64,000 nucleotides of DNA from Nitrospira defluvii (GTDB lineage: Bacteria; Nitrospirota; Nitrospiria; Nitrospirales; Nitrospiraceae): positions 744,001-808,000 of the forward strand of contig FP929003.1 of the NCBI GenBank assembly GCA_000196815.1, read 5' to 3'. The position numbers and the translations under genes were made by a program. This document shows positions 28,966-48,984 of this stretch, one piece after another. The notes below the pieces were generated by a model. It was not told the origin of the DNA. It made no database searches and was given only the letters and a program-made list of their open reading frames with translations. Positions within the stretch are counted from its first letter, which is position 1. Each line of letters starts with the position of its first letter.

Positions 28966-28995
28966 TTGACTTGTTGAAAAATTGCCTGCTATGGT
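28966..28995 (+). promoter_or_regulatory. Promoter of the folD-metF-panB operon
   Basis: TTGACT (28966-28971), an 18-base spacer and TATGGT (28990-28995), followed by the folD GTG at 29036. The position argues against the upstream in-frame starts for folD (28982, 28991), which would lie within the promoter. Confidence 0.5.
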
Positions 28996-29035
28996 GCCGA
29001 CACTTTTTGATTCTATTCAGGCCAGGGAGGATATC

Positions 29036-29896
29036 GTGGCAGCTCGAATTATCGATGGGAAGGCGTTGGCGCAACAGGTTCGTGAAGGACTCGCGAAAGA
29101 ATCCGCGGCGGTATTGGCCAAAACAGGGATGAAACCGGGGTTGGCCACGATCTTGGTGGGGGACGATCCCGCCTCGCATCTCTATGTCAAAAGTAAACAG
29201 AAGGCCTGCGATGCAGCGGGGATCTATATCGACGATTCGAAGTTGCCTGCCAGCACGACTCAGGCCGATCTGTTGTCCCTGATCGCCCAGAAGAATGCCG
29301 ATCCGAAGATCCACGGCATTCTGGTGCAATTGCCGCTGCCCAAACATATCGACAGCAAGGTTGTCCTGGACGCGGTGTCCGCTCAAAAGGATGCCGATGG
29401 CTTTCACCCGTACAACTTCGGTCGGCTCGTCGAGGGAAGCCCCATTTTTGAGGCCTGCACGCCGAAGGGGGTTATTAAGATGATCGAATCGACCGGCGTG
29501 TCGATCGAGGGCAAGCGTGCGGTGGTGCTTGGCCGCAGCAACATCGTCGGCAAACCCCTCGCGCTCATGCTGCTCCACCGCAACGCGACCGTCACGATTT
29601 GTCATTCCAAAACAAAAGACCTGCCGGCTGTCTGCCGGGAGGCGGAATTGCTGCTGGTGGCGATCGGAAAAGCCAAATTCGTAACGGCCGATATGGTGCG
29701 CGAAGGCGCGGTGGTGATCGATGTGGGTACCAACCGCCTGCCGGACGGCAAGGTGGTGGGAGATGTCGATTTCGACTCGGTCAGCCAGAAGGCCGGGTGG
29801 ATCAGTCCGGTTCCCGGCGGAGTCGGGCCGATGACGATTGCGATGTTGCTCGACAATACGGTTGAATCTGCTAAGAGAATGGCAGGGATGAAGTAG
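29036..29896 (+). CDS. folD: Methylenetetrahydrofolate dehydrogenase/cyclohydrolase
   Basis: Bifunctional one-carbon enzyme interconverting methylene-, methenyl- and formyl-tetrahydrofolate. 286 residues from GTG 29036, with AGGGAGG at 29024-29030. Active-site motifs are SHLYVKSKQKACDAAGI (catalytic Lys), GILVQLPLPKHID, PCTPKGVI-like EACTPKGVIKMIE, VVLGRSNIVGKP and PVPGGVGPMTIAML. It begins an apparent operon with a metF-like gene and panB, all folate-linked. Confidence 0.96.
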   Translation: MAARIIDGKALAQQVREGLAKESAAVLAKTGMKPGLATILVGDDPASHLYVKSKQKACDAAGIYIDDSKLPASTTQADLLSLIAQKNADPKIHGILVQLPLPKHIDSKVVLDAVSAQKDADGFHPYNFGRLVEGSPIFEACTPKGVIKMIESTGVSIEGKRAVVLGRSNIVGKPLALMLLHRNATVTICHSKTKDLPAVCREAELLLVAIGKAKFVTADMVREGAVVIDVGTNRLPDGKVVGDVDFDSVSQKAGWISPVPGGVGPMTIAMLLDNTVESAKRMAGMK

Positions 29897-29933: not shown

Positions 29934-29963
29934 GGCGTGCGCACAGATGCAGGGGAGAACGAG

Positions 29964-30854
29964 ATGATCCGAGAGCCGCGGCGACTCAAAGACGTATTGG
30001 CCCAGGGACAATTTGCCGTAACGGTGGAATATAACCCGCCGAAGGGCACGAACCTGACCCATGTGGTCGAGAGTGCCAAGGCACTCGTCGGACGTGTGCA
30101 TGGGGTGAACGTCACCGACAACACGGCGGCAATCGTACGCGCCGGGTCCTTGCCGGTCTGTCGCGTGTTGTATGAGTTGGGGCATGACCCGGTGATGCAG
30201 CTGACCTGTCGTGATCGCAATCGGATCGCGATGCAATCGGATCTCATGGGGGCACACATCCTGGGCATCCGGAATATCCTCTGTCTCACCGGAGACTATC
30301 CCACCGTAGGCGACCATAAAGAAGCCAAGCCGGTGTACGATCTGGATTCTGTTCAGGTCATGCAGCTGGTGACGGGATTGAATAACGGGAAGGACTATGC
30401 GGGCAACAAGCTCGACGGATCCACCGCTTTTACGATCGGCGGGGCCGTGACTCCCGAGGCCGATCCGCTCGGCCCGATGCTGGTGAAGTTCGAGGTCAAG
30501 GTGCGGGCCGGCGCGGAGTTCTTTCAAACCCAGGCGATTTATCAGCCGGAGCAGTTCAAGACCTTTATGCAGGCGGTGCGTCCGTTCAACGTGAAGGTGC
30601 TGGCGGGCATTCTATTGCTTCGCAGCGCCAAGATGGCGGAATTCATGAACGCCAACATTCCAGGCGTCTGTGTGCCGCAGGACATGATCGACGAAATGCG
30701 CGCAGCAGGCGACAAGCGCGCGCTCGATGCCGGAGTCGAGATCGCCGTGCGCACCATCAAAGCCGTACGCCCTTACTGCGACGGCGTGCACATCATGGCG
30801 ATCAAGTCGACGGAACGGCTGCCGGAAATTCTCACGAAAGCAGAGCTGGGGTAA
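29964..30854 (+). CDS. metF: Methylenetetrahydrofolate reductase family protein, short form
   Basis: 296 residues from ATG 29964, with AGGGGAG at 29951-29957; the frame is open to GTG 29937. A single TIM-barrel of the MTHFR/MetF family: FAVTVEYNPPKGTNLTHVVE, HGVNVTDNTAAIVRAG, MQLTCRDRNRIAMQSDLMGA, NILCLTGDYPTVGDH, FFQTQAIYQPEQF and KVLAGILLLRS. It reduces methylene-THF to methyl-THF. It lacks the C-terminal Cys-rich MTHFR_C domain, which is encoded as a separate small gene at 44120-44368. Its stop overlaps the panB ATG by one base. The electron donor is not evident from sequence. Confidence 0.87.
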   Translation: MIREPRRLKDVLAQGQFAVTVEYNPPKGTNLTHVVESAKALVGRVHGVNVTDNTAAIVRAGSLPVCRVLYELGHDPVMQLTCRDRNRIAMQSDLMGAHILGIRNILCLTGDYPTVGDHKEAKPVYDLDSVQVMQLVTGLNNGKDYAGNKLDGSTAFTIGGAVTPEADPLGPMLVKFEVKVRAGAEFFQTQAIYQPEQFKTFMQAVRPFNVKVLAGILLLRSAKMAEFMNANIPGVCVPQDMIDEMRAAGDKRALDAGVEIAVRTIKAVRPYCDGVHIMAIKSTERLPEILTKAELG

Positions 30855-31642
30855 TGACCGTCCCCGACTTGCAGAAGTGCAAGCGTGACAGGCGGAAGAT
30901 CGCGGTCGTCACCGCGTACGACGCGTTGTTTGCGCGCATCGTCGAGCAGGCCGGGATTGACGTGATCCTGGTGGGCGATTCCCTGGGGGTGGTGGTACAG
31001 GGCAAGTCGAATACTCTCTCCGTCACGATGGAGGAGATGCTGTACCACACGAAGCTCGTAGCCGGAGCCGCTCAGCGGTCGTTGGTCATCGGCGATATGC
31101 CCTTTCTGTCTTACCAGGTCAGCCAGGAGGAGGCGCTTCGAAACGCCGGCCGGTTCATTCAGGCCGGAGCCCATGCCGTGAAGCTGGAAGGGGGAGCTGC
31201 GGTCGCGGACCGTGTGTCGGCGATCGTGAAAATTGGTGTCCCGGTGATGGGGCACCTTGGCATGACGCCCCAATCGGTCCATCAGTATGGCGGGTATAAG
31301 GTTCAGGGAAAGGGCAAGGATCGGGCGCAGCAACTGCTTGAAGACGCGCAGGCGTTGGAAGCTTCCGGGGCCATGGGGATCGTGCTGGAAGCGATTCCCG
31401 CAGGGTTGGCCAAGACCGTGACGGAGGCACTCACGATTCCGACGATCGGCATCGGGGCCGGTCCGCATTGCGATGGTCAGGTGCTGGTGCTGTACGACCT
31501 GCTGGGTCTATTCGATGAGTTTGTGCCGAAGTTCGTCAAACCCTATGCGCATCTCAAGGTCGATGCACTGCAGGCTCTCCGCCGATACAAGGAGGAGGTT
31601 GAGCAGGGCACCTTCCCGTCCGATTCTGAAAGTTATCACTAG
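30854..31642 (+). CDS. panB: 3-methyl-2-oxobutanoate hydroxymethyltransferase
   Basis: First committed step of pantothenate synthesis, using methylene-THF as hydroxymethyl donor. 262 residues. Motifs: VVTAYDALFARIVEQAGIDVILVGDSLG (metal ligand Asp), HTKLVAGAAQRSLVIGDMPF, GAHAVKLEGG, VPVMGHLGMTPQSVHQYGGY and TIGIGAGPHCDGQVLVLYDLLG. It overlaps the metF-like stop by one base, and the shared folate substrate makes the operon coherent. Confidence 0.96.
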   Translation: MTVPDLQKCKRDRRKIAVVTAYDALFARIVEQAGIDVILVGDSLGVVVQGKSNTLSVTMEEMLYHTKLVAGAAQRSLVIGDMPFLSYQVSQEEALRNAGRFIQAGAHAVKLEGGAAVADRVSAIVKIGVPVMGHLGMTPQSVHQYGGYKVQGKGKDRAQQLLEDAQALEASGAMGIVLEAIPAGLAKTVTEALTIPTIGIGAGPHCDGQVLVLYDLLGLFDEFVPKFVKPYAHLKVDALQALRRYKEEVEQGTFPSDSESYH

Positions 31643-36200: not shown

Positions 36201-37508
36201 TTCTTCTGAAGCGACCTCGATGAGGCGGCCGCTCCGGAGCGCCTCGCGATCATGGAGTGTGAAGCGGTCGGCCTCCTCCTTGCGGAAAAAATCATGGCCG
36301 GTCCGGCCAAGGATGAGGTCGCGACTGAATCCTGTGAGCTCCTCCGCCGCCCGATTCCAGCGTGTGAACCGGAGCTGTTCGGCTTCTTTCACGTAGACCA
36401 TGATGGGTAGGTTTTCGATCACCGAGTCGAGAAATTGTTCGGCACGTTTCGTTTCGGTTTCAGCCTTATGCCGATCTGCTGCCTCCGCGGCGAGTGAGAC
36501 GGTGTTCGCCACAGAGGCCGCAAACTGCTGTTCCTCCGTCGTCCAGACTCTCGGCGTTCCGATGTGTTCACAGTGCAGCGCCCCAACCAGAATACCCTCG
36601 GCGCGGATGGGCACGTGCAGCATGGAGGTGATCCCCAGCGGCAGCAGATGGTGTGCTGCAAATTCAACCGTTCGCGGGTCCGACTGCGCCTCATCCGCGA
36701 CGATCATCTCTCCCGCCTCGAGCGATGAGAAGTACTGCGGATAAAGGGCCGCGGGTTGCTCGATGCCGTTTGAGTGTTGATCGCCCGGTTGGTCATAGAG
36801 GTCCGCGCACCGGAGGACCGCGTGGTCCGGCGCAAAAAACCAGATGCCGACCCGTGCGACGCGGAGGCTCTGTGCCGTGACCCGGGTGATGAGGTGGAAG
36901 GCCTCGGTCAATTGTCCGCGGTAGATCGCCTGATTGCTTGCTAGCCCGACCATGCCTGTCTGTAAGCGGCGGAGCAACGCGGAGTTTTCGACCTGATGTG
37001 ACTCCGCCTCCTTCTGGGTTGTGAGATCCCGGAACGTCAGGACGGCTCCGCTCACGACGCCATCATGTGACATCGGAGTGATTGTCAGAGAAATTGGCGT
37101 TAACTGGCCATCTTGTCTAAGCAGGAAACCATTGTCCGTCCGGTAGGGGAGTCCGGACTGCAGCGGAGGAATGGAGCTGTCGGTTACGAGGCACTCGTGG
37201 CGGAATTCCTCCGGGCCGGGAGCAATCAGTTGATACGCGGGGCGTCCCTTCAGGTCATGGGCGGGGGCACCGAACAGGATCTCGGCTTGGGGATTCAGCC
37301 GGAGGATGTGCCATTGCGCATCGACGATACACAAGCCTTCGTCGAGCGAGCAGAGGATGGCGTCGAGCGCGCGGCCTTCGTCGAGGGACGTAGTCGTGTT
37401 GGAAGGCGGAAGTTCCCGGCGTTCGGTTTGCGAGTGGCCCGAGTCGGTCGCGGGTTGCCGGGTCGCGCGCCGCACGCTCTGCCTGAGTTGTTGGAGGAAC
37501 CGACGCAT
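33213..37508 (-). CDS. Soluble hybrid histidine kinase (PAS-GAF-PAS-PAS-PAS-HisKA-HATPase-REC-REC-HPt)
   Basis: 1431 residues from ATG 37508; a GTG at 37574 would add 22 and overlap the upstream kinase by 38 bases. No membrane segment. Order: PAS (ILCSLDEGLCIVDAQW), GAF (about 180-350), PAS (VIENLPIMVYVKE), PAS (LFESSRDAIMILAS), PAS (MLDNAGHAIISCKPDG), HisKA ([15 protein letters not shown]), HATPase ([29 protein letters not shown]), a first receiver (ILIVDDMRTN, AILDLRMPGRDG), a second receiver ([25 protein letters not shown]) and a C-terminal HPt (AHRLKSSSAQLGI). Each phospho-acceptor is present. Partner of the membrane kinase just upstream. Confidence 0.94.
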   Translation of the reverse strand: MRRFLQQLRQSVRRATRQPATDSGHSQTERRELPPSNTTTSLDEGRALDAILCSLDEGLCIVDAQWHILRLNPQAEILFGAPAHDLKGRPAYQLIAPGPEEFRHECLVTDSSIPPLQSGLPYRTDNGFLLRQDGQLTPISLTITPMSHDGVVSGAVLTFRDLTTQKEAESHQVENSALLRRLQTGMVGLASNQAIYRGQLTEAFHLITRVTAQSLRVARVGIWFFAPDHAVLRCADLYDQPGDQHSNGIEQPAALYPQYFSSLEAGEMIVADEAQSDPRTVEFAAHHLLPLGITSMLHVPIRAEGILVGALHCEHIGTPRVWTTEEQQFAASVANTVSLAAEAADRHKAETETKRAEQFLDSVIENLPIMVYVKEAEQLRFTRWNRAAEELTGFSRDLILGRTGHDFFRKEEADRFTLHDREALRSGRLIEVASEEIHTQHRGVRLLRTKKLPVMDEQGRPRFLLGIAEDITDRSAHESILHESEEKYRELFESSRDAIMILASPNWNFTACNPATVQLFGARDAEHFTSLGPWDVSPEHQPDGEESMVKAPKMIGMALQEGSHSFEWLHKRVGGPAFLASVQLTRITLKGTTGLQATVRDITEQRRSEATLQAYSTFQKAMLDNAGHAIISCKPDGMIQVFNPAAEALLGYSADELVGKQTPGIFHDLDEVVARARQFSAELGTTIEPGFDVFVEKCRRNLPNEHEWAYVCKDGTRKTVLLNVTALREADGRITGYLGIATDITPLKLTAQELVSAKEAAEAANVAKSRFLANMSHEIRTPLNGVLGMTELLLSTSLSAKQQSLLETVRRSGVALLEVINDILDFSKIEAGKLELEQVEFGLRQVVEEAVELFAGSAGNKKLELTYFIPADVPDSLVGDAVRLRQILLNLIGNAIKFTAQGEVTVAFALAEQHADTLTLACRVRDTGIGIPDAAQAQLFTAFTQADGSTTRRFGGTGLGLAIVKQLVQLMGGEVGLVSAPGQGTTFSFTFTVTRGSAHAAYPPLAERHLAGRQILIVDDMRTNLEILATHLQSWGATVFTAESADDALLQLEHFRHKQQQIDMAILDLRMPGRDGVDLARSIKEQAAYQNLPLIALSSVERLSDESDVTHRLFHSFLRKPVRQSLLRDCLTRALGGSAGPVPHSPEFAATPRPRVDARILLAEDNPVNQDVASSMLEMLGCRITIAPNGRAAVEAATTGRFDLILMDCQMPEMDGFTATAAIRRQEATATDRRHVPIIALTANAMEGDRARCLAAGMDDYLTKPFTVAQLYAFLTQWLTPRPAEESETDQAPSTHAANTHEPAATEEAPVPTTIDKAAWDAILSLQRPGRPDILARVLATYLDDSRQLVEQIRSAVQSQDSVALSQAAHRLKSSSAQLGILATAAHCKELEALGRRARIDEAAHRLSQLIEAHQFACAAITSELQQRSAR

Positions 37509-37536
37509 TGTCACGACCTGTCCGTCCGATGGTGCA

Positions 37537-40464
37537 TCATGCCGCCGACCGTCCTGCCCGGTTGAGTTCTTCACTCATCAGGGCGCATACCGCCCGGTGT
37601 TCAGGAATCAGGCGCCCGCAGAGGTCGGGAAGATTGTCCGGAGTGCCTGCCCGGCATGCCGCTTCGATCTGCGCGTACAGGTCGGCCAGTCGCGGTGCGC
37701 CGAGCTGCGCCGTTGAGGATTTCATCATATGGGCGATGGTCTTTACCGCCTGCATGTCGGCGCCGGCCATGGCCTGCTGGAGCTGAGTAAGCTGGGCGTC
37801 GGCATGGGGCACATACAATGAGAGTGCCTTGTGGAGAAGATCCGGCTGGCCGGGTCGTTGACGGGCACGGATCGCGTGCCACGCCTTGAGGTCCACATGG
37901 TCGTCGCCTGGCAGGACGGGTTCGGGCGGTAGTGTCGCCTGTCGGGGCGGTGTCTGCGGTGTCGACCGCAGAGGGGGGGCGGTTGTTCGTGAGGGCCCCG
38001 TGATGGAGAGCCGGCGGTGCAGCACCTCCTTGAGCGTAGTCAATGTAAACGGCTTGGATAGGTAATCATCCATGCCTGCCGCCAGACACCGCTCGCGGTC
38101 TCCTTGCAATGCATTTGCGGTGAGGGCCACGATGGTGGTGTGCCGAGGCTGCGTGGCCTGTGTTTCTTGTTCACGAATCAGGGCGGTGGCGGTCAGGCCG
38201 TCCATCTCCGGCATGTGGCAATCCATCAGAACCAGATCGAATGACCGATTCGTGAGTGCCTCGACCGCTTCCCTGCCGTTTTCAACCATGGTGGTGGTGC
38301 ACCCGAGTAGCTCCAGCATAGTGAATGCCACTTCGCGGTTGACGGGGTTATCTTCCGCGAGCAGGACGTGGGCGGCGAATGGGACGGCCTGATCGTCCGG
38401 CTGGACCGGCGCGGGTGCCCCGGTCGTCGGGACGTGGTGGCACAGGCGTGTGAGGCAATCTTTTAACAAGGACTGGTGGGCCGGCTTTCTCAGCCAGGCA
38501 CTGAAGAGAGACGGGTGCCTCTGGGATTCGTCTGTGACCTGGTCGACCGAGCTGAGCGCGACGAGCACCATGCCGGAAAGTCGTGCATCTTCTCGAATGG
38601 TCTGGGCCAGCGTCATGCCGTCCATGTCCGGCATGTGAATATCCAGCACGGCCAGATGGATTCTTCGCTGGGCGGTGCATTGGCGATCGAGCAAAGCCAG
38701 CGCTTCCAGGCCGGAGGTGGCGGACAGCACTGCGGCGCCCCAGGCGCTCAAGTGCGTTTCAAGGATGTGCCGGTTCGTTGGATTGTCATCGACGATTAAG
38801 ATGGAGAATCCGTCTAACGGTCTTTCGGTTGCTCCAGAGGCGGCCGTACGTTGGGCGGCCTGTTCCAGTTCGACAGTGAACCAGAAAGTGGATCCCTGGC
38901 CGGACACGCTGTCGACGCCGACGTCGCCTCCCATCAGGAGGGCGAGTTGTTTCACAATCGCGAGGCCAAGCCCTGTGCCGCCGAATTTCCGTGTGGTGGA
39001 GTTATCGGCCTGCGAGAATGCCTGAAATAGTCGAGCCTGCGTCGCTTCAGGAATGCCGACTCCCGTATCGCGGATGCGGAATTTGAGCGTCAGGTTCGTC
39101 GTGGTAGGGGTGACGAGCTCGAGCGTGACGGCCACATCGCCGCTCTGGGTGAACTTAATGGCGTTGCCGACGAGATTCAGAAGGATTTGCCGGAGCCGAA
39201 CAGGATCTCCAATCACGGTGTCCGGGATGTCCGGCGGCACGAAACAGGTGAGTTCGAGGTGTTTGCGACCGGCGGTTTCTGCAAACAGATCCACGGCATC
39301 TTCAACCGTCTGTCTCAGGCCGAACTCGATCCGCTCCAACTTCAGTTTGCCGGCCTCGATTTTCGAGAAATCAAGGATTTCATTGATGATGTCCATGAGC
39401 CCGGTGCCGGACCGGTGCAGGGTTTCCGTCAGTGAACGCTGCTTCTGCGTGAGAGCGGTGCTGAGAAGGAGTTCCGTCATCCCCAGCACCCCGTTCATCG
39501 GGGTGCGGATTTCGTGGCTCATATTCGCGAGGAATTGCGATTTGGCACGATTCGCCGCCTCGGCCGCCTCCTTTGCCTGATGCAATTCGGTAGTTCGTTC
39601 CCGTACCGCTTGCTCCAGTGAGTCGGTGAAGGATTGGAGCCGCTGTGCCTGCGTGGTGAGCAGAGTGGTGGTCGTCTCAACCAGGTCGACTACCTGCTCC
39701 AGGTCGCCCTTGCAGGACGGCGAGGCATGGGAATTGTCGTGATCGGACGCCGCATCGCCGGACGGCGCCTGTTCCGAGACGCAATGGAGGGTATGGAGGG
39801 TCTTCTGCAGCTTTTCGGCAGTTTCTCGAAACAGGCCGGACATGCGCCTGATCCCGAGTTGAGCGACCGAAATCGTGGCCCCCATGAATAGGACTGATAG
39901 GAGGAAGAGGTGGCGCGCTTCGCGGGTGAGTTCCTCCTGCATCGCCGCGAGGGAAAACTCGATGCGCACCCAGGCGGCGATGTCCTGCTCGTTCAGGAGC
40001 GGCGTGGCCACTAGAAGTGTGGGCACGCCGTCCACAGTCTGGCCATGGGAAATGGTCTCCGCGTTGGTTTCGTGTGCCTGCGCGAGGGTCTCATCCGTCA
40101 GCTGCTGCCCGATTTGCCGAGGATTCGTCGCTGCGACGATCATGTTATCGGGATCGATGATGAGGATACTCAGAATGTCCGAATCCTGGGCATAGCGACC
40201 GAACGCCTCTTGGATGCGAAAGAGATTGTCCAACACGGCGGCGGCGCCCACCATTGAAAAGGTGCGGCTGACCGCCAGCGCCCTGGCTTGCGTGGCCTGT
40301 TCGATAGACTGGCGGATTTCAATCAGCCGGAAGGTCGCGAAGCCGGCCATGCCGATCGTAATCAGGACCGCCATTCCGATGCTCAGACGAAGGCGGAGAT
40401 TCCCGTGCCAGATGCGCCAGGGGCGACAAAGCCAGTCGGTCCTATTTTTTATTGGCATCGACAT
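37537..40464 (-). CDS. Membrane hybrid histidine kinase with periplasmic sensor (HisKA-HATPase-REC-REC-HPt)
   Basis: 975 residues. A first membrane helix (about 27-47, [17 protein letters not shown]), a periplasmic domain of about 135 residues with [20 protein letters not shown] (single Cache/PAS-like), then a second helix (about 184-203). A cytoplasmic linker with coiled-coil character follows. HisKA has [15 protein letters not shown]; HATPase has [18 protein letters not shown] and [11 protein letters not shown]. Two receivers ([10 protein letters not shown] with [22 protein letters not shown] with [12 protein letters not shown]) and an HPt ([13 protein letters not shown]) end the protein. 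Its start overlaps the cupredoxin-like gene by 23 bases, tying it to the envelope redox genes. Confidence 0.94.
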
Positions 40465-41161
40465 GAGCGGGGTATTCGATCGTGATGGTGACTTCGCCGC
40501 GAGCTGGAATCGTGACTCGTTGTTGGAACGTTCCCAGCGTGTCGTGCCAGACCGTTACGAGGTGCTCCCCCGGGGTGAGTTGGGCGATCTGGAACGCGCC
40601 GGTGTCGTCTGTGACACTAAAAAAGGGGTGGGTGAAGGCGACCATAGTGGCGCGCATAAATTTGTGCGCATCGCACTGAACCAGATAGATGCCGGGTTGC
40701 TTGAGCGGCTTTTCGACCGGTCGGCTCGCGGGGATCATGGCGACATTCACAAAGGTTCGCGGTCCCATGGAAATGTGGGTGTTGTGCATGACGGGGTCGT
40801 CGTTGCGGATCTCCAGTTGCTGGCCAACCTCCCCCGCGACAATGCGAGGTGAGAAGGCACAACGGGTATTGGTGAGCACAAGCGGGCGGCGTGGGAAATC
40901 GGCCGCGGGGACTGTGTTGTCGTCGATGCTGACGACGGCGCCTTGAAGGCCTCGCGTCTTCGCATTCACCGTCACGGTGTGGATGGCGGTGGTGGTGCCG
41001 CAGAAAGACGAATCGCGTGTGACCGCGACCACCTGCCCTGATTCGATCGGGCCAGGATAGGTGATTCGACCCACCAGTGTGCTCATGGGAGATTCCGCTC
41101 TCAGGAGGGCGCTCGGGCCGAGCATTACGCAGAGCGTCACGGTGAGCAGTATCGGTTTCAT
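40442..41161 (-). CDS. Exported cupredoxin-like protein with C-terminal Ig-like domain
   Basis: 239 residues from ATG 41161, nine bases after GGAG; ATG 41170 sits directly on that site. Signal peptide to about residue 23. The cupredoxin-like core has candidate type-1 copper ligands: His126/His129 (DPVMHNTHI), Cys163, His166 and Met169 (QCDAHKFM). The last 60 residues ([23 protein letters not shown]) form a carboxypeptidase-regulatory-like beta domain. Proteins of this architecture are often annotated as methylamine-utilisation or plastocyanin-like; no methylamine dehydrogenase is present. Likely periplasmic copper or electron-carrier protein. It overlaps the membrane kinase gene by 23 bases. 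Confidence 0.8.
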
Positions 41162-41236
41162 GTATCGCATCTCCAGGTCCCCGTTGGGCGTCCGTCTCGT
41201 CGGTTGTATGAAATGTGGGTGCTTCATGGTGCCGAA

Positions 41237-42010
41237 TTATCGCCCCGGCTGACCTGATAAGGACTGGAGGTACCACACCAGATCCCATGCAGCTTCTTCC
41301 TGTCCGGCAAATTGATCGGCATAGGCAGGCATGGGGGTGCCGTCGAGTCCGGTCATGATGCTTCGATAGAGATCGTGAGGCGTCGCCCCGTTTTTGAATG
41401 AGGATGGGTCGGTCAGGTCCGTGGCGGTGATGGGAAGGTTGTAGGCGTCCCGCAGGTGCCCGGCCTTCGATTCCGGTCCATCACCGGCACCATTGTCCCC
41501 GTGGCAGGTCCGACACTCGTACTTGGCATACAGCGCCCGGCCGTTCGTGATTCCATTCCCGGAGGGAAAGAGCGGCGGAGAGGGGAGCACCATCGGCGTC
41601 GGCTGTTCCTGCTCGAACGCCGGATTCAACGATTTGAGATAGGCGATGACCTGCCATCGCTCCTGCTCGTTCAAGGATCGGTACGACGGCATGAAGCCGG
41701 GAATGCCCTGTGTGATGGTTCTGAAAAGGTCCTGATCCGTGGGCAGTTCACCCGAGGGGGTGCTGCGCAGTTTGTAGCTCTCCGCCGTGAAGTCGCGAGG
41801 ACGAGGGGCTGCGTAGCGACCGATGGACCAGCCGGATGGCCCGTCCCCTTTCCCTTCGGTCCCATGGCACCAGACACAGGCCCGATCATAAATTCGATGC
41901 CCCTCTGTGATGGTATCCCGTCCGTCCTTCGGCCGTAGCGCCTGCGCGGTCGTGGCGCAGAAGCCTGTCACGATGAGGATCGCAAGATATCGGAGTACAC
42001 GGCGATGCAT
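41237..42010 (-). CDS. Exported diheme cytochrome c
   Basis: 257 residues from ATG 42010, with GGGGAG just upstream. Signal peptide ends near residue 24 (ATTAQA). Two class I cytochrome c domains: CVWCH at 45-49 with Met107 (GFMPSY), and CRTCH at 166-170 with Met227 (GTPMPAY). Each domain closes with the usual helix (WQVIAYLKSL, WDLVWYLQSL). Likely periplasmic electron carrier. It lies 13 bases after the heme-barrel gene and 75 before the cupredoxin-like gene on the same strand. Confidence 0.9.
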   Translation of the reverse strand: MHRRVLRYLAILIVTGFCATTAQALRPKDGRDTITEGHRIYDRACVWCHGTEGKGDGPSGWSIGRYAAPRPRDFTAESYKLRSTPSGELPTDQDLFRTITQGIPGFMPSYRSLNEQERWQVIAYLKSLNPAFEQEQPTPMVLPSPPLFPSGNGITNGRALYAKYECRTCHGDNGAGDGPESKAGHLRDAYNLPITATDLTDPSSFKNGATPHDLYRSIMTGLDGTPMPAYADQFAGQEEAAWDLVWYLQSLSGQPGR

Positions 42011-42023
42011 GATGCTCCCCGGT

Positions 42024-43403
42024 TTAGTAAGAGATGTCGATTCCCACAAAAACTGCATGTCTCAGATTGCGAGCTGCCGCATTGCCCTCTTCTGCACGAC
42101 GCAAATTGAGGTCGTGTCGGGCGTAAAGGGCCACATTCGAGCGAAGGTAGTGCTTGATCTGCATGCCGGCGAACGTTTGTGATGTGCGCTGGGTCAGATC
42201 TCCTCCGGCATCCATGTTGTCGTACCGTAGCGAGAGCAGGGTTCGGTTCGTGACGTAGGCATCCAGTGCGACGGTCACTCCGCTGGCGGTGGTGTCGAAA
42301 TTGCTCAAGGCCGCTGTCGGGGCATGTGTGATTCGATCCAGGGTATACATCCCATGGAGATCCAGCATTTTGTAGCGCAGATGCGCGGCTGCACCGTAGC
42401 GATTCCAATTCGCATCGACGTTGCGTGTGCCGTCGAACACAGTGGCATTGCTGTTCCCGAGATAGGCAAATCCCGAGAGGCTTGCTGAAAAGTTGGCTGA
42501 GCGGGCGTAATCAAGGCGGATGGCGCCGTAAAAATCTTTGCCCTTATTGGAATCTCCAAAGCCCTCGTTCGAGCCGTTCAGCACGCCGACCTGATACATG
42601 AACCAGTCGCCGAACGGACGCCCACGGACTTCGACGCCGGTTTCCGCTACTGCGTTGTAGAGTGAGGGGGCATAGGGGGAAATGACGGTTCCTGAGCGAT
42701 CGCGCAGACCGTAGAATTTGGCGGCTGTGGCAAGCGGGAAAAGCCCTGCCCGCTGGACCGCGTCGGTGGAGGAATTCGTGCTCTCACCGATAAATTCGAG
42801 TTGTTGCCGGAGGGTGGAAAAGGAGAATACGGCCGAAGGGTCGAGTTTCCCGATGCGGATGTTGGCGATATTCTCACCTCCAACGTTGTTGAACGTAATG
42901 AAGGCTCGCTCAATCCCTGTTGCCCCTTCTTCGAGATTGGATTCCATCTCGGCAAAAAACCCCATATCTTTGCTCAAGGTGCCGGCAGTAAATAGACTGA
43001 ACACTTCCGGGAATCCGAGCTCGCTCTTGTTTTGGACCGTGCCGGATTCCGCCCCCGGCGGATTCTGCTGCTTGAAGTTGTGGGCGCGCAGGACGTTTCC
43101 ACGGAGCCGGACACCTGTGTAGTGCGCAAAATCATCCAGGCTGAGGTCGCCGAGATTTTTCTTTCCTGTGATGCCCCCGTCTTCGGTTCCCGGAAGCTGA
43201 TAGCCGTTTTCGAGGAACCGTTCACCGAATGTATTGAGCTGTGGTGGAGCCGTGTGGCACGTCGTGCAGTTCAACGCGTATTTCCGCGCAAAGGCGGGAA
43301 TAGCTTCTGCGGTTTGAACTGACATGTCGTACGTTCCCGATATCACAACGAAGAGCCCTGCCACCGTCTGAACGATGGTCGCTCCGATGGAGTGCGTGCG
43401 CAA
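42024..43403 (-). CDS. Outer-membrane beta-barrel protein with N-terminal c-type heme site
   Basis: 459 residues from TTG 43403, chosen because AAGGA (43415-43411) is seven bases upstream and the N-terminus then becomes a clean signal peptide ending near AEA; an ATG at 43469 would add 22 basic residues. Mature protein starts with AFARKYALNCTTCHTAPPQLNTFGERF, a heme-binding CTTCH at 46-50, a pattern known in bacterial single-heme porins. About 390 residues of alternating strands follow, ending in HAVFVGIDISY. Predicted to bring a heme to the periplasmic mouth of a barrel. First gene of the envelope/kinase operon. Confidence 0.82.
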   Translation of the reverse strand: MRTHSIGATIVQTVAGLFVVISGTYDMSVQTAEAIPAFARKYALNCTTCHTAPPQLNTFGERFLENGYQLPGTEDGGITGKKNLGDLSLDDFAHYTGVRLRGNVLRAHNFKQQNPPGAESGTVQNKSELGFPEVFSLFTAGTLSKDMGFFAEMESNLEEGATGIERAFITFNNVGGENIANIRIGKLDPSAVFSFSTLRQQLEFIGESTNSSTDAVQRAGLFPLATAAKFYGLRDRSGTVISPYAPSLYNAVAETGVEVRGRPFGDWFMYQVGVLNGSNEGFGDSNKGKDFYGAIRLDYARSANFSASLSGFAYLGNSNATVFDGTRNVDANWNRYGAAAHLRYKMLDLHGMYTLDRITHAPTAALSNFDTTASGVTVALDAYVTNRTLLSLRYDNMDAGGDLTQRTSQTFAGMQIKHYLRSNVALYARHDLNLRRAEEGNAAARNLRHAVFVGIDISY

Positions 43404-43667
43404 GTCGGTGTCCTTTTCCCGCTCGATAGCGACCCTGTTGCGACGTACGGGTACCCTGTGCCGACCCATGCCGCACCCTGACTGTCTGATGTCGGTGGAT
43501 TTTGAGTCGGACTTTAGGCGTTTTTAGTGAGAACCATTGGCAGTGCGCAGCACGTACGGAGTTGTCGCAGTGTGAGTGGGATAGTTGCGATGGGTGTGCA
43601 GGTGATGAGGTGAAGCGAGGCAAGTAGCCAGTGGATGGCGTACAGAGGAGGTTGCGGAGTGGGCAAT

Positions 43668-44096
43668 TTATGCTGGATAGTTTGCTTCGATTACGCTTCG
43701 CAGTCCTCCACGAGCGGCAAATTCACCGGTTACTGTGGCCTTGGTTGGCCGACAGGCTCGTACGATGTCCTGAAGGATGCGATTGACGGCATTCTCGTAG
43801 AAAATTCCTACATTTCTGTAGGCATGAATGTACATTTTGAGAGCCTTAAGCTCGAGGCAATACTTGTCTGGCTGGTAGCGAAGGGTGATAGTTCCGAAGT
43901 CCGGCAGGTTGGTCTTAGGACATATGGCTGTGTACTCTGGTATGACGATTGTAATTTCGTATCCCTTGTATTGATTGGGGAATGTCTCAATGTCGGGCAG
44001 GGGAGTAGAGATTCCACTCTTGGCGTGCCGTTCGTTGTATCCCAGCCTTGTTGTTGCTCCCGCGGGCTTCTGTTTTTTATTACCTTTCGCTGCCAC
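43668..44096 (-). CDS. queF: NADPH-dependent 7-cyano-7-deazaguanine reductase
   Basis: Reduces preQ0 to preQ1 in queuosine synthesis. 142 residues from GTG 44096 (GTG 44138 would overlap the upstream gene by 19 bases). Short, type I QueF: the T-fold core has the catalytic Cys59 in EYTAICPKTNLPDFG with Asp66. ELKALKMYIHAYRNVG is the family substrate-site segment, and ACRPTKATVTGEFAARGG completes the domain. It lies 23 bases after the stand-alone MTHFR_C gene. No other queuosine gene is in the window. Confidence 0.92.
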   Translation of the reverse strand: MAAKGNKKQKPAGATTRLGYNERHAKSGISTPLPDIETFPNQYKGYEITIVIPEYTAICPKTNLPDFGTITLRYQPDKYCLELKALKMYIHAYRNVGIFYENAVNRILQDIVRACRPTKATVTGEFAARGGLRSVIEANYPA

Positions 44097-44119
44097 CCGT
44101 TCACCCCACCTTCTTGTTA

Positions 44120-44368
44120 TCAGACTTGCTTCATCCACTCCAATTGGCCCAGTTCGTTCAATTTATTGTAGAGCGTGACCCACGGACAGGTCATTTCCGG
44201 ATAGACCTCGCAGAATCCACCTTTGCGGACGCCTCCGCATGGACCATGGCTCATGAATTTTGGGCACTCGGCCTTGAGTGAGCCATCCGGGATTGGTGGT
44301 CGCTTGTGCACCCCTCCCGCATGTTGCTCGCCATGTTCTTCTCCTGGGACCAGTACTCGTATAGGCAT
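44120..44368 (-). CDS. Stand-alone MTHFR C-terminal (Cys-rich) domain protein
   Basis: 82 residues. CPKFMSHGPCGGVRKGGFCEV followed by CPWVTLY gives four cysteines (35, 44, 53, 61). This matches the domain found at the C-terminus of some methylenetetrahydrofolate reductases and in MetV-like partners. It carries no catalytic barrel. It probably binds zinc or an iron-sulfur cluster and may act with the short MetF encoded at 29964-30854 (inference). It precedes queF on the same strand. Confidence 0.78.
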   Translation of the reverse strand: MPIRVLVPGEEHGEQHAGGVHKRPPIPDGSLKAECPKFMSHGPCGGVRKGGFCEVYPEMTCPWVTLYNKLNELGQLEWMKQV

Positions 44369-44828
44369 AGGCGCAGTGTAGATCGAAACGCGTTAAGCGA
44401 CAATGTTTACCCGCTTCTCGGGTCAACTGCAACTGAATTGCGTGACGCATCGTGTTTGCGACAGAAGTAAAATCTCCGCGTTCAAGCGGATTTAGGGCCA
44501 AGGGCCTAGCACGGTTATTTCTACTAGGCCTTCTTTCGTCCGGTGTGGGCCTTCTGCAAAGTTGCAATGCTTTTCTGGACTCTATAGACTCCCCATTGTC
44601 CTGATGTAATGAGAGCGGTTGCAGTACTAGTTGCGATTGACAGATTTTTTCGGGCTTTGTTACACTCGGCGACTACACGAAGCAAGAAAACTAAGATCCG
44701 TTCCGTGTCGGGATCACAGTTCGGTACTCAGTCCAAATATAGCGTCAAGATAATCTGCACCTGACTTTTTCTGGCCGCTCTTGTTGGTCCGAAGAAAGTC
44801 CTCAGTTTATAAAAGGGAGGGAGTCCTT
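44369..44828. other. Divergent intergenic region between the queF pair and the oxidoreductase operon
   Basis: 460 bases, visibly richer in A and T than its surroundings, without a convincing ORF. It holds the operon promoter at 44637-44666. It also holds an inverted repeat GGCCTAG (44503-44509) / CTAGGCC (44524-44530) followed by a T-rich stretch, and a short CCGC/GCGG pairing just before it. No upstream plus-strand gene needs a terminator here, so the repeat may be an operator or transcript structure. No tRNA was recognised. Confidence 0.5.
44637..44666 (+). promoter_or_regulatory. Promoter of the 2-oxoacid:ferredoxin oxidoreductase operon
   Basis: TTGACA (44637-44642), an 18-base spacer and TACACT (44661-44666). 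A start near 44673 leaves an untranslated leader of about 155 bases before the first ATG, long enough for regulation. Confidence 0.58.
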
Positions 44829-45728
44829 ATGAGCCTTGATTACGTCAAGTTTTCAAGTGGCTTTGAGAAGTTCATGCCGAAAGAATATCGGGACATGGTT
44901 GAGCATGGTCCCTTCGGGAAAAAAGTCTCCGTTTCGCAAATGGGTTCTTTTAAGGAGGTGCTTGAAGAGCACCCGATGTGTGCCGGCTGTGCGATGACTC
45001 TCTTCATCCGACTCGCCATGATCGCCTTCCCCAATCCAGAGGATACCATCACGGTTGGAACTGCCGGTTGTGGACGCCTGGCGATCTCGCAGGCCGCCAT
45101 TCCTTTTGTGTACGGCAACTACGGCGACCAAAATGGTGTGGCAAGCGGGTTGTCCCGTGGCTTGCGTCTTCGGTTCGGTGATAAGCCTAAGGACGTGGTC
45201 GTTATGGCCGGTGACGGCGGTACGGCTGATATCGGATTTCAGCAGGTCCTTCACTCCTGGTTCCGTAAGGAACGATTCACCACCATCATGCTGGACAATG
45301 AAGTGTACGGGAACACCGGTGGGCAGGAAAGCGGTATGACCAATCGTGGCGCTGTTCTCAAGATGGCTCCGTTAGGGAAGAAGTTTGAGAAGATGGATAT
45401 GCTGCAGATGGCCAAGGTTGCCGGATGCGCCTATGTTGCGACGGTGGTGCCGAACAATCCTCGCCGTGTTGAGAGCGTCATTAAGAAGGCTGTGTTGATA
45501 GCTAGGGAAGTCGGGTCGACCTATATTCAGGCTTATACTTCCTGCAACATTGAATATGCCATTCCGACCGACAAGGTTATGGAAGACGCAAAGAACGTTG
45601 AAAACGATCGCTATCAGTTCTCCGAATATATTACCGACGAGGCGAAGCAATTTCTTACGGAACGGTATGGCTACAAGGAATTTCTCCCGAAGCCGGCTGC
45701 TCCCGCTCCGGGGCTTCCCAAGGCCTAA
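44829..45728 (+). CDS. 2-oxoacid:ferredoxin oxidoreductase, beta (TPP) subunit
   Basis: 299 residues from ATG 44829 after an AGGGAGGG site. Cys51 and Cys54 (HPMCAGCAMTL) with Cys81 are candidate cluster ligands. GDGGTADIGFQQ (128-139) with DNEVYGNTGGQ (156-166) is the thiamine-diphosphate/Mg motif. The enzyme carboxylates acetyl-CoA to pyruvate or succinyl-CoA to 2-oxoglutarate using reduced ferredoxin in the reductive TCA cycle. Which substrate this copy uses cannot be read from sequence alone. First of five genes with an unusual beta-gamma-delta-epsilon-alpha order. Confidence 0.92.
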   Translation: MSLDYVKFSSGFEKFMPKEYRDMVEHGPFGKKVSVSQMGSFKEVLEEHPMCAGCAMTLFIRLAMIAFPNPEDTITVGTAGCGRLAISQAAIPFVYGNYGDQNGVASGLSRGLRLRFGDKPKDVVVMAGDGGTADIGFQQVLHSWFRKERFTTIMLDNEVYGNTGGQESGMTNRGAVLKMAPLGKKFEKMDMLQMAKVAGCAYVATVVPNNPRRVESVIKKAVLIAREVGSTYIQAYTSCNIEYAIPTDKVMEDAKNVENDRYQFSEYITDEAKQFLTERYGYKEFLPKPAAPAPGLPKA

Positions 45729-45751
45729 GCAACGTTTAAGGAGGGTTGAGT

Positions 45752-46465
45752 ATGGCGACACGGTTCAATATTCGTATGGCGGGTGTGGGCGGCCAGGGCG
45801 TTGTGACCGGCTCGCATATTCTTAGTACGGCGGTCATTCATGCCGGAGGAGAAAGTACGATCGTTCCGTTTTACGGATCAGAAAAGCGTATGGCACCAGT
45901 CGAGAGCTATGTTCGAGTCTCGGATGAGCCTATCTATGAAATCGGTGAGATCACCTTCCCGCACATCATCATCATCTTTCACCCGCAGGTCATCACGCAC
46001 GGCAAGTCATACACCATGCCGTTCTACTTCGGGTTGAAGGAGAACGGGATTGCCTTGATCAATAATGATGGCCCCATGAAGCTCCATCGCGACCAGGCGC
46101 GTGAGCTCGAAGAGCGTCATGCGAAACTGTATTATTTCCCGGCTACGAAACTTTCTTTGGAAGTGGCGGGAATGGACCTCGCCACGAACATGGCCTTGAT
46201 GGGTTGCATCGGGGCTATCACAGGGCTGACCTCTGTCGAGGCCTTGGAGCAATCGGTGAAAGATCGGTTCCTCGGGAAAGGTTTTGTGGTCTCCGGAGGT
46301 ACTGCAGCGCTGGACAGCGTCGTTGAACGGAAATTCAAGAAGAAGCAAGAGTTGATCGAGAAAAACGTGGCAGTTATTCGCGCCGGCTGGAATTATGCCG
46401 TTGACCATGGATGGGCGGCCCCCTCTGTGAAGCGTTCGGAAGCGGCGGAGAGCGTCACCGCATAA
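45752..46465 (+). CDS. 2-oxoacid:ferredoxin oxidoreductase, gamma subunit
   Basis: 237 residues from ATG 45752, seven bases after TAAGGAGGG. IRMAGVGGQGVVTGSHILSTA is the family N-terminus, followed by FYGSEKRMAPVESYVRVSDEPI and the NNDGPMKL region. The gamma subunit completes the CoA-binding part of the enzyme. The C-terminal 40 residues (KKKQELIEKNVAVIRAG) form a helical extension. Second gene of the operon. Confidence 0.92.
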   Translation: MATRFNIRMAGVGGQGVVTGSHILSTAVIHAGGESTIVPFYGSEKRMAPVESYVRVSDEPIYEIGEITFPHIIIIFHPQVITHGKSYTMPFYFGLKENGIALINNDGPMKLHRDQARELEERHAKLYYFPATKLSLEVAGMDLATNMALMGCIGAITGLTSVEALEQSVKDRFLGKGFVVSGGTAALDSVVERKFKKKQELIEKNVAVIRAGWNYAVDHGWAAPSVKRSEAAESVTA

Positions 46466-46489
46466 TCCAGTTATGGACAAGGAGTTCTC

Positions 46490-46813
46490 ATGTATCTCGT
46501 AGCCGATATCAGCGTTGAGATCTGTGCCGCCAAGAGCTGTAAGCTGTGCACTCAGTATTGCCCGGAAGCCAATACCATTTTGTATAGCGATGAAATGGGT
46601 AAGGACAAGGGGTTCAAGTACGGCTCGGCTTATGTGGCGGTAGATCGGTGTAAGGGCTGCGCGCAATGCGTGTGGGTCTGTGACAATATGGCAAAGAACA
46701 ATGCCATTAAAATGATCATGATTGATCAGCTGCCGGTTGCAGCGTTGACGGACAATATTACCTATGGGGAAAAGAGCACGACAGCTACATTGGTCAGCCC
46801 TGTAGTTGGGTAA
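46490..46813 (+). CDS. 2-oxoacid:ferredoxin oxidoreductase, delta (ferredoxin-like) subunit
   Basis: 107 residues with two [4Fe-4S] motifs: Cys12/17/20/24 (CAAKSCKLCTQYCPEA, with an extra two-residue gap in the first spacing) and CKGCAQCVWVC near residue 54-64. The second ends in CDN rather than the usual CP. It would shuttle electrons between external ferredoxin and the TPP subunit. Third gene of the operon. Confidence 0.9.
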   Translation: MYLVADISVEICAAKSCKLCTQYCPEANTILYSDEMGKDKGFKYGSAYVAVDRCKGCAQCVWVCDNMAKNNAIKMIMIDQLPVAALTDNITYGEKSTTATLVSPVVG

Positions 46814-46834
46814 TTGCACGAAAGGGGAACGGGC

Positions 46835-47599
46835 GTGGGAACGACGCAAGATACGAGAGAACGGATAATCGTGCCGGGACCGGCAGGGTTCCATCCACCA
46901 TCAGCGGCTCAGTTGGGAGTCTCGCTGCCGGACCCTGGGCAGGGACTGTATTATGGCTTGCTGGAGCCCAATGAAGACACGGTAATTGAAGAGATGGCTC
47001 GGAAGATGTTGACGAGTCCGAATGCGACGATTTTCCCGGGTCCTCTCGTCTTGTGGGCGTGGAATAACCATGCCGTCGAGAAGGCGCAAGCGGTTCTTGA
47101 AATTGCGGCGCAGATCCCAGATGTGATGATCATTCCCATGCCGGATTATCGGCCCAAGTATCCCAAAATCGATCCGGAAGAGGTGATCAATCCGAACCAC
47201 CCGAATCTCACTATTTGGGGTAACAAGATTGAGGCCTGTATTTTTATCGGTGTTCACTGTCACTATGCCAATCTTACGTTGAAAATGATCCGGGCGGGGA
47301 CGAACTGCTGCACCATGGCTATCTGTGCCGAGCAGGGACACGAGGACGCCATGCTGACAATTCGCGATTCGGACACGTTGAAGCTGAAGAAGACCGCACA
47401 AATCTTTAAGAAGGTTCGTGAGGAAATGGGCATAAAACTTCCGGATAATGGCGAGAACGTCCGATTCACTGGAACGCAGTCCAAGGTCCACGATGGAAAG
47501 ACGCACACGAATCCTATGACCTTTATGCCCTCCGCTGCAGGCGTAGGCAGCGCGGCTACATTTGGCCACTCAGCTGAACAGATGAAGCGGGAAGGCTAA
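46835..47599 (+). CDS. 2-oxoacid:ferredoxin oxidoreductase, epsilon subunit
   Basis: 254 residues from GTG 46835 with AAAGGGGAA upstream; an in-frame codon at 46814 is less likely. The middle, NLTIWGNKIEACIFIGVHCHYANLT with RAGTNCCTMAICAEQG, resembles the small domain seen in the fifth subunit of Hydrogenobacter-type five-subunit enzymes and in CO-dehydrogenase-linked proteins. Its role is unclear, but its presence marks the five-subunit class. Fourth gene of the operon. Confidence 0.82.
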   Translation: MGTTQDTRERIIVPGPAGFHPPSAAQLGVSLPDPGQGLYYGLLEPNEDTVIEEMARKMLTSPNATIFPGPLVLWAWNNHAVEKAQAVLEIAAQIPDVMIIPMPDYRPKYPKIDPEEVINPNHPNLTIWGNKIEACIFIGVHCHYANLTLKMIRAGTNCCTMAICAEQGHEDAMLTIRDSDTLKLKKTAQIFKKVREEMGIKLPDNGENVRFTGTQSKVHDGKTHTNPMTFMPSAAGVGSAATFGHSAEQMKREG

Positions 47600-47637
47600 G
47601 GTTTTAGGCTAAGGCGATACAGTCAAGAGGTGCAACG

Positions 47638-48984
47638 ATGAGCGAAGCATTGGAACCCAAGCAAAAGACTAATCCGCAGGGCGACTCTACTACCAGCGTG
47701 TCGGCCCAGAAGGCCGAGACCAAGAAGGATCCGCACGCGGATGCAAAGCGGCAGAAAGTTGTCACTCCTGAGTACATGTTCCTGGAAGCTCCTCGAACGA
47801 AGGAGTTCATCACCGGCAGCGAGGCTGCAAAAGAGGCCATTCGCCGGTCAAATGTCGATCTTGCCATTGCATACCCCATTACCCCCCAAAGTGAAACTAT
47901 GCAGTTGGTTGGCGTGTTGTATGGTGAGGGGTACGTCAAGGAATATTACCGTGGCGAAGAAGAAGTCGGCGTCATGGCGGCTATCGCCGGCGGGTCACGG
48001 GCTGGAGTTCGTTGCTATACGGCAACGGCTGGGCCAGGGACGCTGAGAGGGCTGGAAGGTATTGCTTCTTGGCCAGGGCACCGGCTACCAGTTGTGGCCA
48101 TGTTCACCTGCCGAGTGGTGAACGCACCGTTGGCCATTCAGCCTGACAACATTGAGGTCTCGTATCTCCTAAATTGCGGCATGATTGTGTTCCATGCCGA
48201 AAATCAGCAGGACATGTATGATTTCACGTTGGCTGGGTTTGTTATCAGCGAAAAGAATGATGTGACCCTTCCCGTCGGCGTGTGCTGTGACGGGTTTTTT
48301 GTGACGCACGCCCGTGGCTATGTGCGTATGCAAGATCGTGGGATGAAACTTCCCCCGCGCGAACCTTGGCGTGGGGCGGTTCCGGTGCTTGATGCTGAGA
48401 ATCCTCCGGCACGGCTCTCGCGCGATGCCCCCGTTCAGAAGTCCAATTTCATGGCCTACAACATTCACGCGGTGTGGCAGCAGGAAGTGTGGGCTGCTGT
48501 GGAGCGTTCCCGTAAGTACATCAACCAGTACATGGGAGGATTGCTCACGGCAGAAAATGTAGATGACGCGGAGGCTGTTATTATTGCCTCAGGTAGTGCG
48601 GCCGCTCAATCACGTGAAGCGGTTCGTATTTGCGCAGAAAAGGGCATTAAGATCGGCCTGATCAAGATACGATCGCTCCGTCCATTCCCGACTCAGGAAT
48701 TGCGCAAACTCTGCGGAAAAGCTAAATTGATTGTTGTGCCGGAATTCAACTATGTCGGATGGTTAGCAAAAGAAGTGGCAACTGCTATTTACGGTTTCTC
48801 AAATGCCAAGATTATCGGTGGCCCGAGAGTGTATGGCGGGCAGTCTATGCCGGTGGAGCTGATCGTGGACGAAGTCGAGTCTGGTCTAACCGGAAAGAAG
48901 TCCACGAACGTTGCCATTTCGCAAGTTATGGGCGCATCAGCTGCTGATCATGAGGCTATGGGACATTTCATGCGCAGCATTTAG
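47638..48984 (+). CDS. 2-oxoacid:ferredoxin oxidoreductase, alpha subunit
   Basis: 448 residues. A charged N-terminal arm of about 55 residues (many Lys, Glu, Thr) precedes the pyrimidine-binding domain: FITGSEAAKEAIRRSNVDLAIAYPITPQSE, then EEEVGVMAAIAGGSRAGVR and TATAGPGTLRGLEG. The C-terminal half has IIASGSAAAQSREAVR and LIKIRSLRPFPTQEL, the domain II/III region. Last gene of the operon, followed by a strong hairpin. Together the five genes give a complete oxygen-sensitive carboxylating enzyme. Confidence 0.93.
   Translation: MSEALEPKQKTNPQGDSTTSVSAQKAETKKDPHADAKRQKVVTPEYMFLEAPRTKEFITGSEAAKEAIRRSNVDLAIAYPITPQSETMQLVGVLYGEGYVKEYYRGEEEVGVMAAIAGGSRAGVRCYTATAGPGTLRGLEGIASWPGHRLPVVAMFTCRVVNAPLAIQPDNIEVSYLLNCGMIVFHAENQQDMYDFTLAGFVISEKNDVTLPVGVCCDGFFVTHARGYVRMQDRGMKLPPREPWRGAVPVLDAENPPARLSRDAPVQKSNFMAYNIHAVWQQEVWAAVERSRKYINQYMGGLLTAENVDDAEAVIIASGSAAAQSREAVRICAEKGIKIGLIKIRSLRPFPTQELRKLCGKAKLIVVPEFNYVGWLAKEVATAIYGFSNAKIIGGPRVYGGQSMPVELIVDEVESGLTGKKSTNVAISQVMGASAADHEAMGHFMRSI

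Follow-up and report, generated by a model that had tools for sequence, protein, structure and literature searches.

The small gene beside queF in the window (the whole 64,000-nucleotide stretch of Nitrospira defluvii DNA analysed here; Table 1) probably encodes a minimal form of MetV, the accessory subunit of the anaerobe-type enzyme MetVF; it would be a partner of MetF that binds a single metal, probably zinc, and lacks the predicted electron relays of MetV. The comparisons presented below establish that the protein descends from MetV, that cysteine sets were lost step by step, that the accompanying MetF has MetVF character and that the gene is strongly conserved. More tentatively, the pair may constitute an undescribed type of methylenetetrahydrofolate reductase (MTHFR) in the Nitrospirales, in which a MetVF-type MetF has a single-zinc MetV core free of iron-sulfur clusters as its obligate partner and receives electrons straight from ferredoxin. 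If this were true, methyl-group synthesis would be coupled to the pool of ferredoxin used by the neighbouring reductive TCA oxidoreductase, in an organism living with oxygen. In the parts of the open-licence literature that were accessible, we found neither a cluster-free MetV nor a MetV of Nitrospira described, which is not proof that no description exists. The accessible text of one study treats the physiological electron donor of MetVF enzymes as an open question in acetogen energetics (PMC8760232). The small protein points to a piece of MetV that may be essential, and no smaller system than the Nitrospira pair would be available for asking what the invariant core of MetV does without clusters; the finding also fills in the one-carbon metabolism of a major nitrite-oxidising group.

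Table 1. Features of the window discussed in the text, with positions counted from its first letter.
Feature	Position	Strand	Remarks
folD (upstream neighbour of metF)	28982..29896	(+)	
metF (MetVF-type methylenetetrahydrofolate reductase)	about 29937..30854	(+)	assigned by PF02219, residues and tree; exact start uncertain
panB (downstream neighbour of metF)	30854..31642	(+)	
queF (QueF-II, preQ1 synthase), directly downstream of small gene	43668..44138	(-)	most upstream start, probably too long
Small gene (probable minimal MetV-like protein, 82 aa)	44120..44368	(-)	ATG start; C-terminal half of PF12225
Conserved non-coding element, between small gene and oxidoreductase genes	44492..44555	(-)	
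2-oxoacid:ferredoxin oxidoreductase, five genes (B, C, D, CO_dh-epsilon-like, A)	44781..48984	(+)	divergent from small gene

The small protein and its relation to MetV

The earlier note had described a small open reading frame with nothing but the Cys-rich MTHFR_C domain, and such a gene is indeed present. Its product matches PF12225 (MTHFR_C) with 49.6 bits in a profile search (cut-off 23), over profile positions 40–87 of 95 only, that is, just the C-terminal half of the domain, and a profile search of the 4.3-Mb single-contig genome gave this gene as the only PF12225 match. It is a real, constrained gene under strong purifying selection, since codon comparison with 11 relatives places pN (0.02–0.16) far below pS (0.39–0.82).

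The 30 full-length MetV proteins of the phylum have 12 invariant Cys in three sets of four (27/30/34/93, 131/134/137/146 and 151/160/168/176); of these, the small protein has counterparts of the last four, the other eight being gone. Absent from the alignment of the 82-residue protein are thus both the N-terminal domain with four Cys, which is the first predicted [4Fe-4S] site of MetV, and the CxxCxxC...C set, which is the second. What is present is the C-terminal four-Cys core (CPK, GPCGG, CEV, CxW), with C35, C44, C53 and C61 as likely metal ligands; H21 is also invariant and follows GGV, which aligns with the GGI before the last Cys of the CxxCxxC...C set. In the sister families f5 and f9 of the same class, a form of 93–117 aa keeps seven Cys (3+4) and stands in the metV slot, folD-X-metF-panB, in all seven loci read. 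In outgroups metV lies between folD and metF, and in family f36, of the same class, a full metV still follows folD. The operon of the Nitrospiraceae (f1) reads folD-metF-panB, and the small gene is found beyond panB, on the opposite strand and beside queF. Because the longer version in f5 and f9 sits exactly in the place of metV, and because the MetF partner belongs to the MetVF kind, the small protein is, judged from alignment and gene order, a descendant of MetV. There seems to be a natural deletion series with 12, 8, 7, 4 and 0 conserved Cys, each step beside a MetVF-type MetF.

All 150 distinct GPCGG-bearing sequences that were collected have the last four Cys: 102 of 102 small forms (and another one truncated at a contig end), 7/7 mid forms, 5/5 proteobacterial forms and 35/35 full MetVs, three of which read CAK where the motif pattern demanded CPK or CSK after the first Cys. 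One could view the small gene as a degenerate and functionless remnant on its way out, given that the lineage lost parts of MetV stepwise and that family f2 has no such gene at all, but the purifying selection and the retention of all four Cys in every copy collected make this most improbable.

Structural models give a limited picture. In the AlphaFold model of the small protein, built from 45 homologues (mean pLDDT 68), the N-terminus is poorly defined (residues 1–8 and 13–22 below 50) and the Cys region, with two helices, is better defined (72–91 for the ten-residue blocks from residue 41). A fold search of the PDB with this model gave no match, the model of a full MetV (mean pLDDT 69) matched Rossmann-like folds only weakly (E 2e-3 or worse), and searching the PDB by sequence, with either the small protein or full MetV, led to no useful match.

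Purified MetVF of Clostridium ljungdahlii contains about 7.4–7.5 Fe per heterodimer, equal to two [4Fe-4S] clusters, and MetV carries an NGPCGG ‘MTHFR-C’ motif; in the accessible parts of these two reports, MetV figures as an iron-sulfur-zinc protein by annotation or prediction only (PMC8515935, PMC8760232). Two clusters set against 12 invariant Cys leave one Cys set for another metal, and from the motifs we infer that this iron-free set is the core kept in Nitrospira, a part of MetV that has no obvious cluster motif. The MetFV-like split enzyme proposed in the earlier note thus stands as to MetV descent and a partner MetF of the MetVF kind; its separate iron-sulfur subunit is probably wrong in detail, since both Fe-S-like Cys sets are gone. 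An electron relay in which the four Cys nonetheless hold a [4Fe-4S] cluster and pass ferredoxin electrons to the flavin of MetF, as is thought for MetV, would draw on the fact that these are the same four Cys as in MetV and that genes of a ferredoxin-dependent oxidoreductase adjoin the small gene in 69 of 70 testable loci (among the best 80 of 130 relatives). We consider it unlikely, however, because the motifs that best match two clusters, the N-terminal set and CxxCxxC...C, are the ones missing, because the iron counts of purified MetVF, as given in the accessible text, fit two clusters and not three (PMC8515935, PMC8760232), and because the four remaining Cys are evenly spaced and without CxxC.

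In the reading that we prefer, that of a minimal MetV with one metal, MetV would have lost its N-terminal cluster domain and its CxxCxxC...C cluster motif, leaving the 82-residue core. This core would most likely fold around a single metal held by C35, C44, C53 and C61, with zinc more likely than a [4Fe-4S] cluster. The small protein would bind the MetVF-type MetF encoded nearby, thereby stabilising it or completing its active site, and MetF would be supplied with electrons by a soluble carrier without any relay, for instance by reduced ferredoxin or flavodoxin, as both Cys sets predicted to relay electrons are gone.

The partner MetF and its co-occurrence with the small gene

MetF had been described earlier as short and without the Cys-rich domain, and this proves correct: apart from the window metF, the genome gave no PF02219 match and no MTHFR gene, its product is roughly 300 aa long without an MTHFR_C domain, and the single PF12225 match of the genome lies elsewhere. 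A short MetF is ordinary, E. coli metF (891 bp) being about as long. At E. coli positions 60, 88 and 219, all 95 MetVF-type rows, Nitrospira MetF included, have D, Q and M, and Y, H and Q/G stand in the ten E. coli-type rows from the phylum. F223 was tried as a marker of NADH use and rejected, position 223 being F in five and M in five of these ten E. coli-type rows. In a maximum-likelihood tree of 87 MetFs, with the f1 rows thinned to 17, the E. coli type stands separate (11 rows, 100/100), and Nitrospira MetF groups with the MetFs whose genes adjoin full metV, and not with the E. coli type. Residues and tree both assign Nitrospira MetF to the MetVF kind and not to the E. coli kind. Acetogen MetF of this kind is described, in the accessible part of one source, as not binding NADH and as working with accessory subunits such as MetV (PMC13001107). 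Judged by open-frame lengths, no natural MTHFR_C-MetF fusion was evident among the Nitrospirota matches. The MetVF-type MetFs of the order, from families with the small gene (f1, f33 and f34) and from f2 without it, form one clade (100/99); a single origin of the small form followed by loss in f2 would fit this, and the tree would ask for one or two changes.

The earlier note had proposed co-occurrence as a check on the pairing, and in the direction from PF12225 to PF02219 this is complete in the phylum sample and nearly so in the class. PF12225 was found in 131 of 198 phylum genomes and PF02219 in 178; all 131 genomes with PF12225 have PF02219, and the 20 without PF02219 include none of them. 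PF12225 is likewise absent from all 16 phylum genomes whose sole PF02219 match scores as E. coli-type. In the class, PF12225 occurs in 176 and PF02219 in 247 of 269 genomes, with PF02219 in 168 of the 176 (profile counts; MetF type by residues and tree was assigned only for the sequences read, not for all co-occurring genomes). By family, PF12225 is present in 159 of the 175 genomes of f1, the family of N. defluvii itself, the 16 others all being at most 90% complete, and furthermore in 6/8 genomes of f33, 3/4 of f34, 6/8 of f5, 1/1 of f9, 1/1 of f36 and 0/48 of f2. The two f5 genomes without PF12225 (G390, G391) gave no metF by BLAST either.

A small gene in a genome that lacks metF, the case named in the earlier note as speaking against a split enzyme, is not seen in the phylum sample. 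In the class, eight genomes with PF12225 had no PF02219 match (G231, G220, G262, G324, G340, G211, G212 and G216). BLAST recovered pieces of metF at contig ends in two of them, G220 and G262; the six other genomes, all drafts, gave no metF and also no match for its neighbour panB. Since panB is missing too, the metF region may simply be unassembled in these six, in which an assembly gap and a true loss are indistinguishable; an assembly gap is hardest to accept for G340 (96% complete, 610 contigs) and G216 (94%, 250 contigs). Of the eight f33 genomes, five have no PF02219 match; metF lies about 10 kb from the small gene at a contig end in G217, a genome with a second, full copy elsewhere, on another contig, and otherwise on a different contig from the small gene. 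In f34, too, the two genes are on different contigs.

MetVF-type metF without any PF12225 is common, occurring in f2, f3, f4, f35, f10 and f18, and thus MetF can do without a MetV-like protein, which speaks against the reading preferred here. MetV of any length is absent from the loci read in these families (L075–L084, L237–L244), and in f3, f4, f10, f18 and f35 the MetVF-type metF is the only MTHFR match in the genomes read. Many f2 genomes have an E. coli-type MetF, either by itself or together with one of the MetVF type, and a few (e.g. G351) have the MetVF type only.

Linkage to queF and the oxidoreductase genes

The loci named here are the best 80 of 130 confirmed relatives from a scan of the genome collection, and all 80 are recorded as Nitrospira, Nitrospiraceae or Nitrospirae/Nitrospirota. 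Among them, queF follows the small gene in 76 of 76 loci with enough sequence, and the oxidoreductase B gene is divergent from it in 69 of 70 testable loci (it is absent in L121), at a distance of up to 700 bp in 63 and of 3.3–4.2 kb in six. In the same set, metF is at most 6.9 kb away in 33 of the 53 loci that have that flank and out of reach in 20, and in those 33 it is always on the opposite strand, facing the small gene. The overlap of the small gene with queF arises from the most upstream start of queF; in the majority of relatives the start of queF lies past the small gene.

The pairing with queF, which the earlier note had left unexplained, is thus real and holds throughout the order, but there are genomes with queF that lack the small gene and genomes with a MetV-like gene that lack queF. 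Such constant neighbours might suggest that the small protein, after leaving the metF operon, was re-used as a partner for either QueF or the 2-oxoacid:ferredoxin oxidoreductase, and the linkage to both does persist in f34, where metF is elsewhere. We nevertheless regard this as quite improbable. First, queF is present in 11/11 f2 genomes searched, all of them without PF12225. Second, five of the six f5/f9 genomes with a MetV-like gene gave no queF match. Third, a window-type oxidoreductase B gene exists without the small gene in 8/8 f2 genomes, one f3 and one f4 genome searched. The family with full MetV, f36, has only remote matches to the B gene. In fact, queF and the oxidoreductase are dispensable neighbours of the MetV-like gene: across the class, metF tracks the small gene in one direction, and they do not. 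A preQ1 or other riboswitch behind the queF pairing was also considered and rejected, there being no Rfam match in the window or in positions 44000–45000.

Between panB/apaH and queF, at about 33213–43469, the window holds histidine kinase, cytochrome c and porin-like genes, named from profile matches or by reading only. In many relatives panB, apaH and queF are close together, and the block appears to be a lineage-specific insertion or rearrangement. It parts metF from the small gene by about 13 kb.

The conserved element upstream of the oxidoreductase genes is built of repeated GGCC half-sites, with two AGAAGGCCYA and an inverted TAGGCC-TT-GCCC part, and was found in 104 distinct copies with flanks among the loci collected. 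It has no Rfam match, and its 6-bp hairpin shows no compensatory change; it seems more like an operator array than an RNA. As a part of the small gene's system it was rejected, since it goes with the oxidoreductase side: in f33 and in some f1 loci, which have the small gene at a distance of about 3.6 kb, it remains with the B gene. At about 44637–44667 (+), a TTGACA-N17-TTACAC-like stretch is well conserved in 16 aligned loci; going by the promoter consensus, we take this to be a possible promoter of the oxidoreductase.

Comparison with known systems

A tblastn search of plasmids with the small protein matched 11 records, of which five proteobacterial loci were read (L245–L249, from Paracoccaceae, Azoarcus, S. 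meliloti, P. aminovorans and P. methylovorus). In each, a gene for an MTHFR_C protein of 157–196 aa, which keeps the second and third Cys sets (8 Cys) and lacks the first, stands immediately upstream of metF, and the MetFs carry D60 and Q88. Hosts of such proteins are generally regarded as aerobes. A MetV-like protein without the N-terminal part, beside a MetVF-like MetF, thus also occurs outside the Nitrospirota, as an independent case. Four of the five loci belong to clusters that also contain corrinoid- or cobalamin-binding, methyltransferase or pterin and ASKHA genes, and the proteins look like a further intermediate MetV type.

We focus finally on the likenesses and differences between the Nitrospira pair and the systems already described. 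First of all, Nitrospira MetF and E. coli-type MetF (type I MTHFR) are similar in length and both lack the MTHFR_C domain; however, they are 22% identical, and D60, Q88 and M275 of Nitrospira MetF correspond to Y60, H88 and Y275 in E. coli-type enzymes. Second, the small protein shares the CPK-GPCGG-CEV-CxW (MTHFR-C) region with MetV of the MetVF-type (type II) MTHFR, such as that of C. ljungdahlii; like MetV, its gene occurs with a MetVF-type MetF, and shortened homologues occupy the operon slot of metV. Unlike MetV, which has about 215–237 aa, it has 82, without the N-terminal domain and without either of the Fe-S-like Cys sets, and its gene stands outside the metF operon, in the window not directly upstream of metF but at the distance given above and on the other strand. 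As those two sets define MetV, the unqualified name would be unsuitable, and ‘minimal MetV-like subunit’ describes the most likely mode of action. Finally, the proteobacterial ‘methylenetetrahydrofolate reductase C-terminal domain-containing protein’ (Paracoccus, Sinorhizobium and Azoarcus plasmids) is, like the Nitrospira small protein, a stand-alone protein without the N-terminal Cys set that occurs beside a MetVF-like MetF, whereas it differs in its greater length, in keeping the CxxCxxC...C set and in being encoded immediately upstream of metF.
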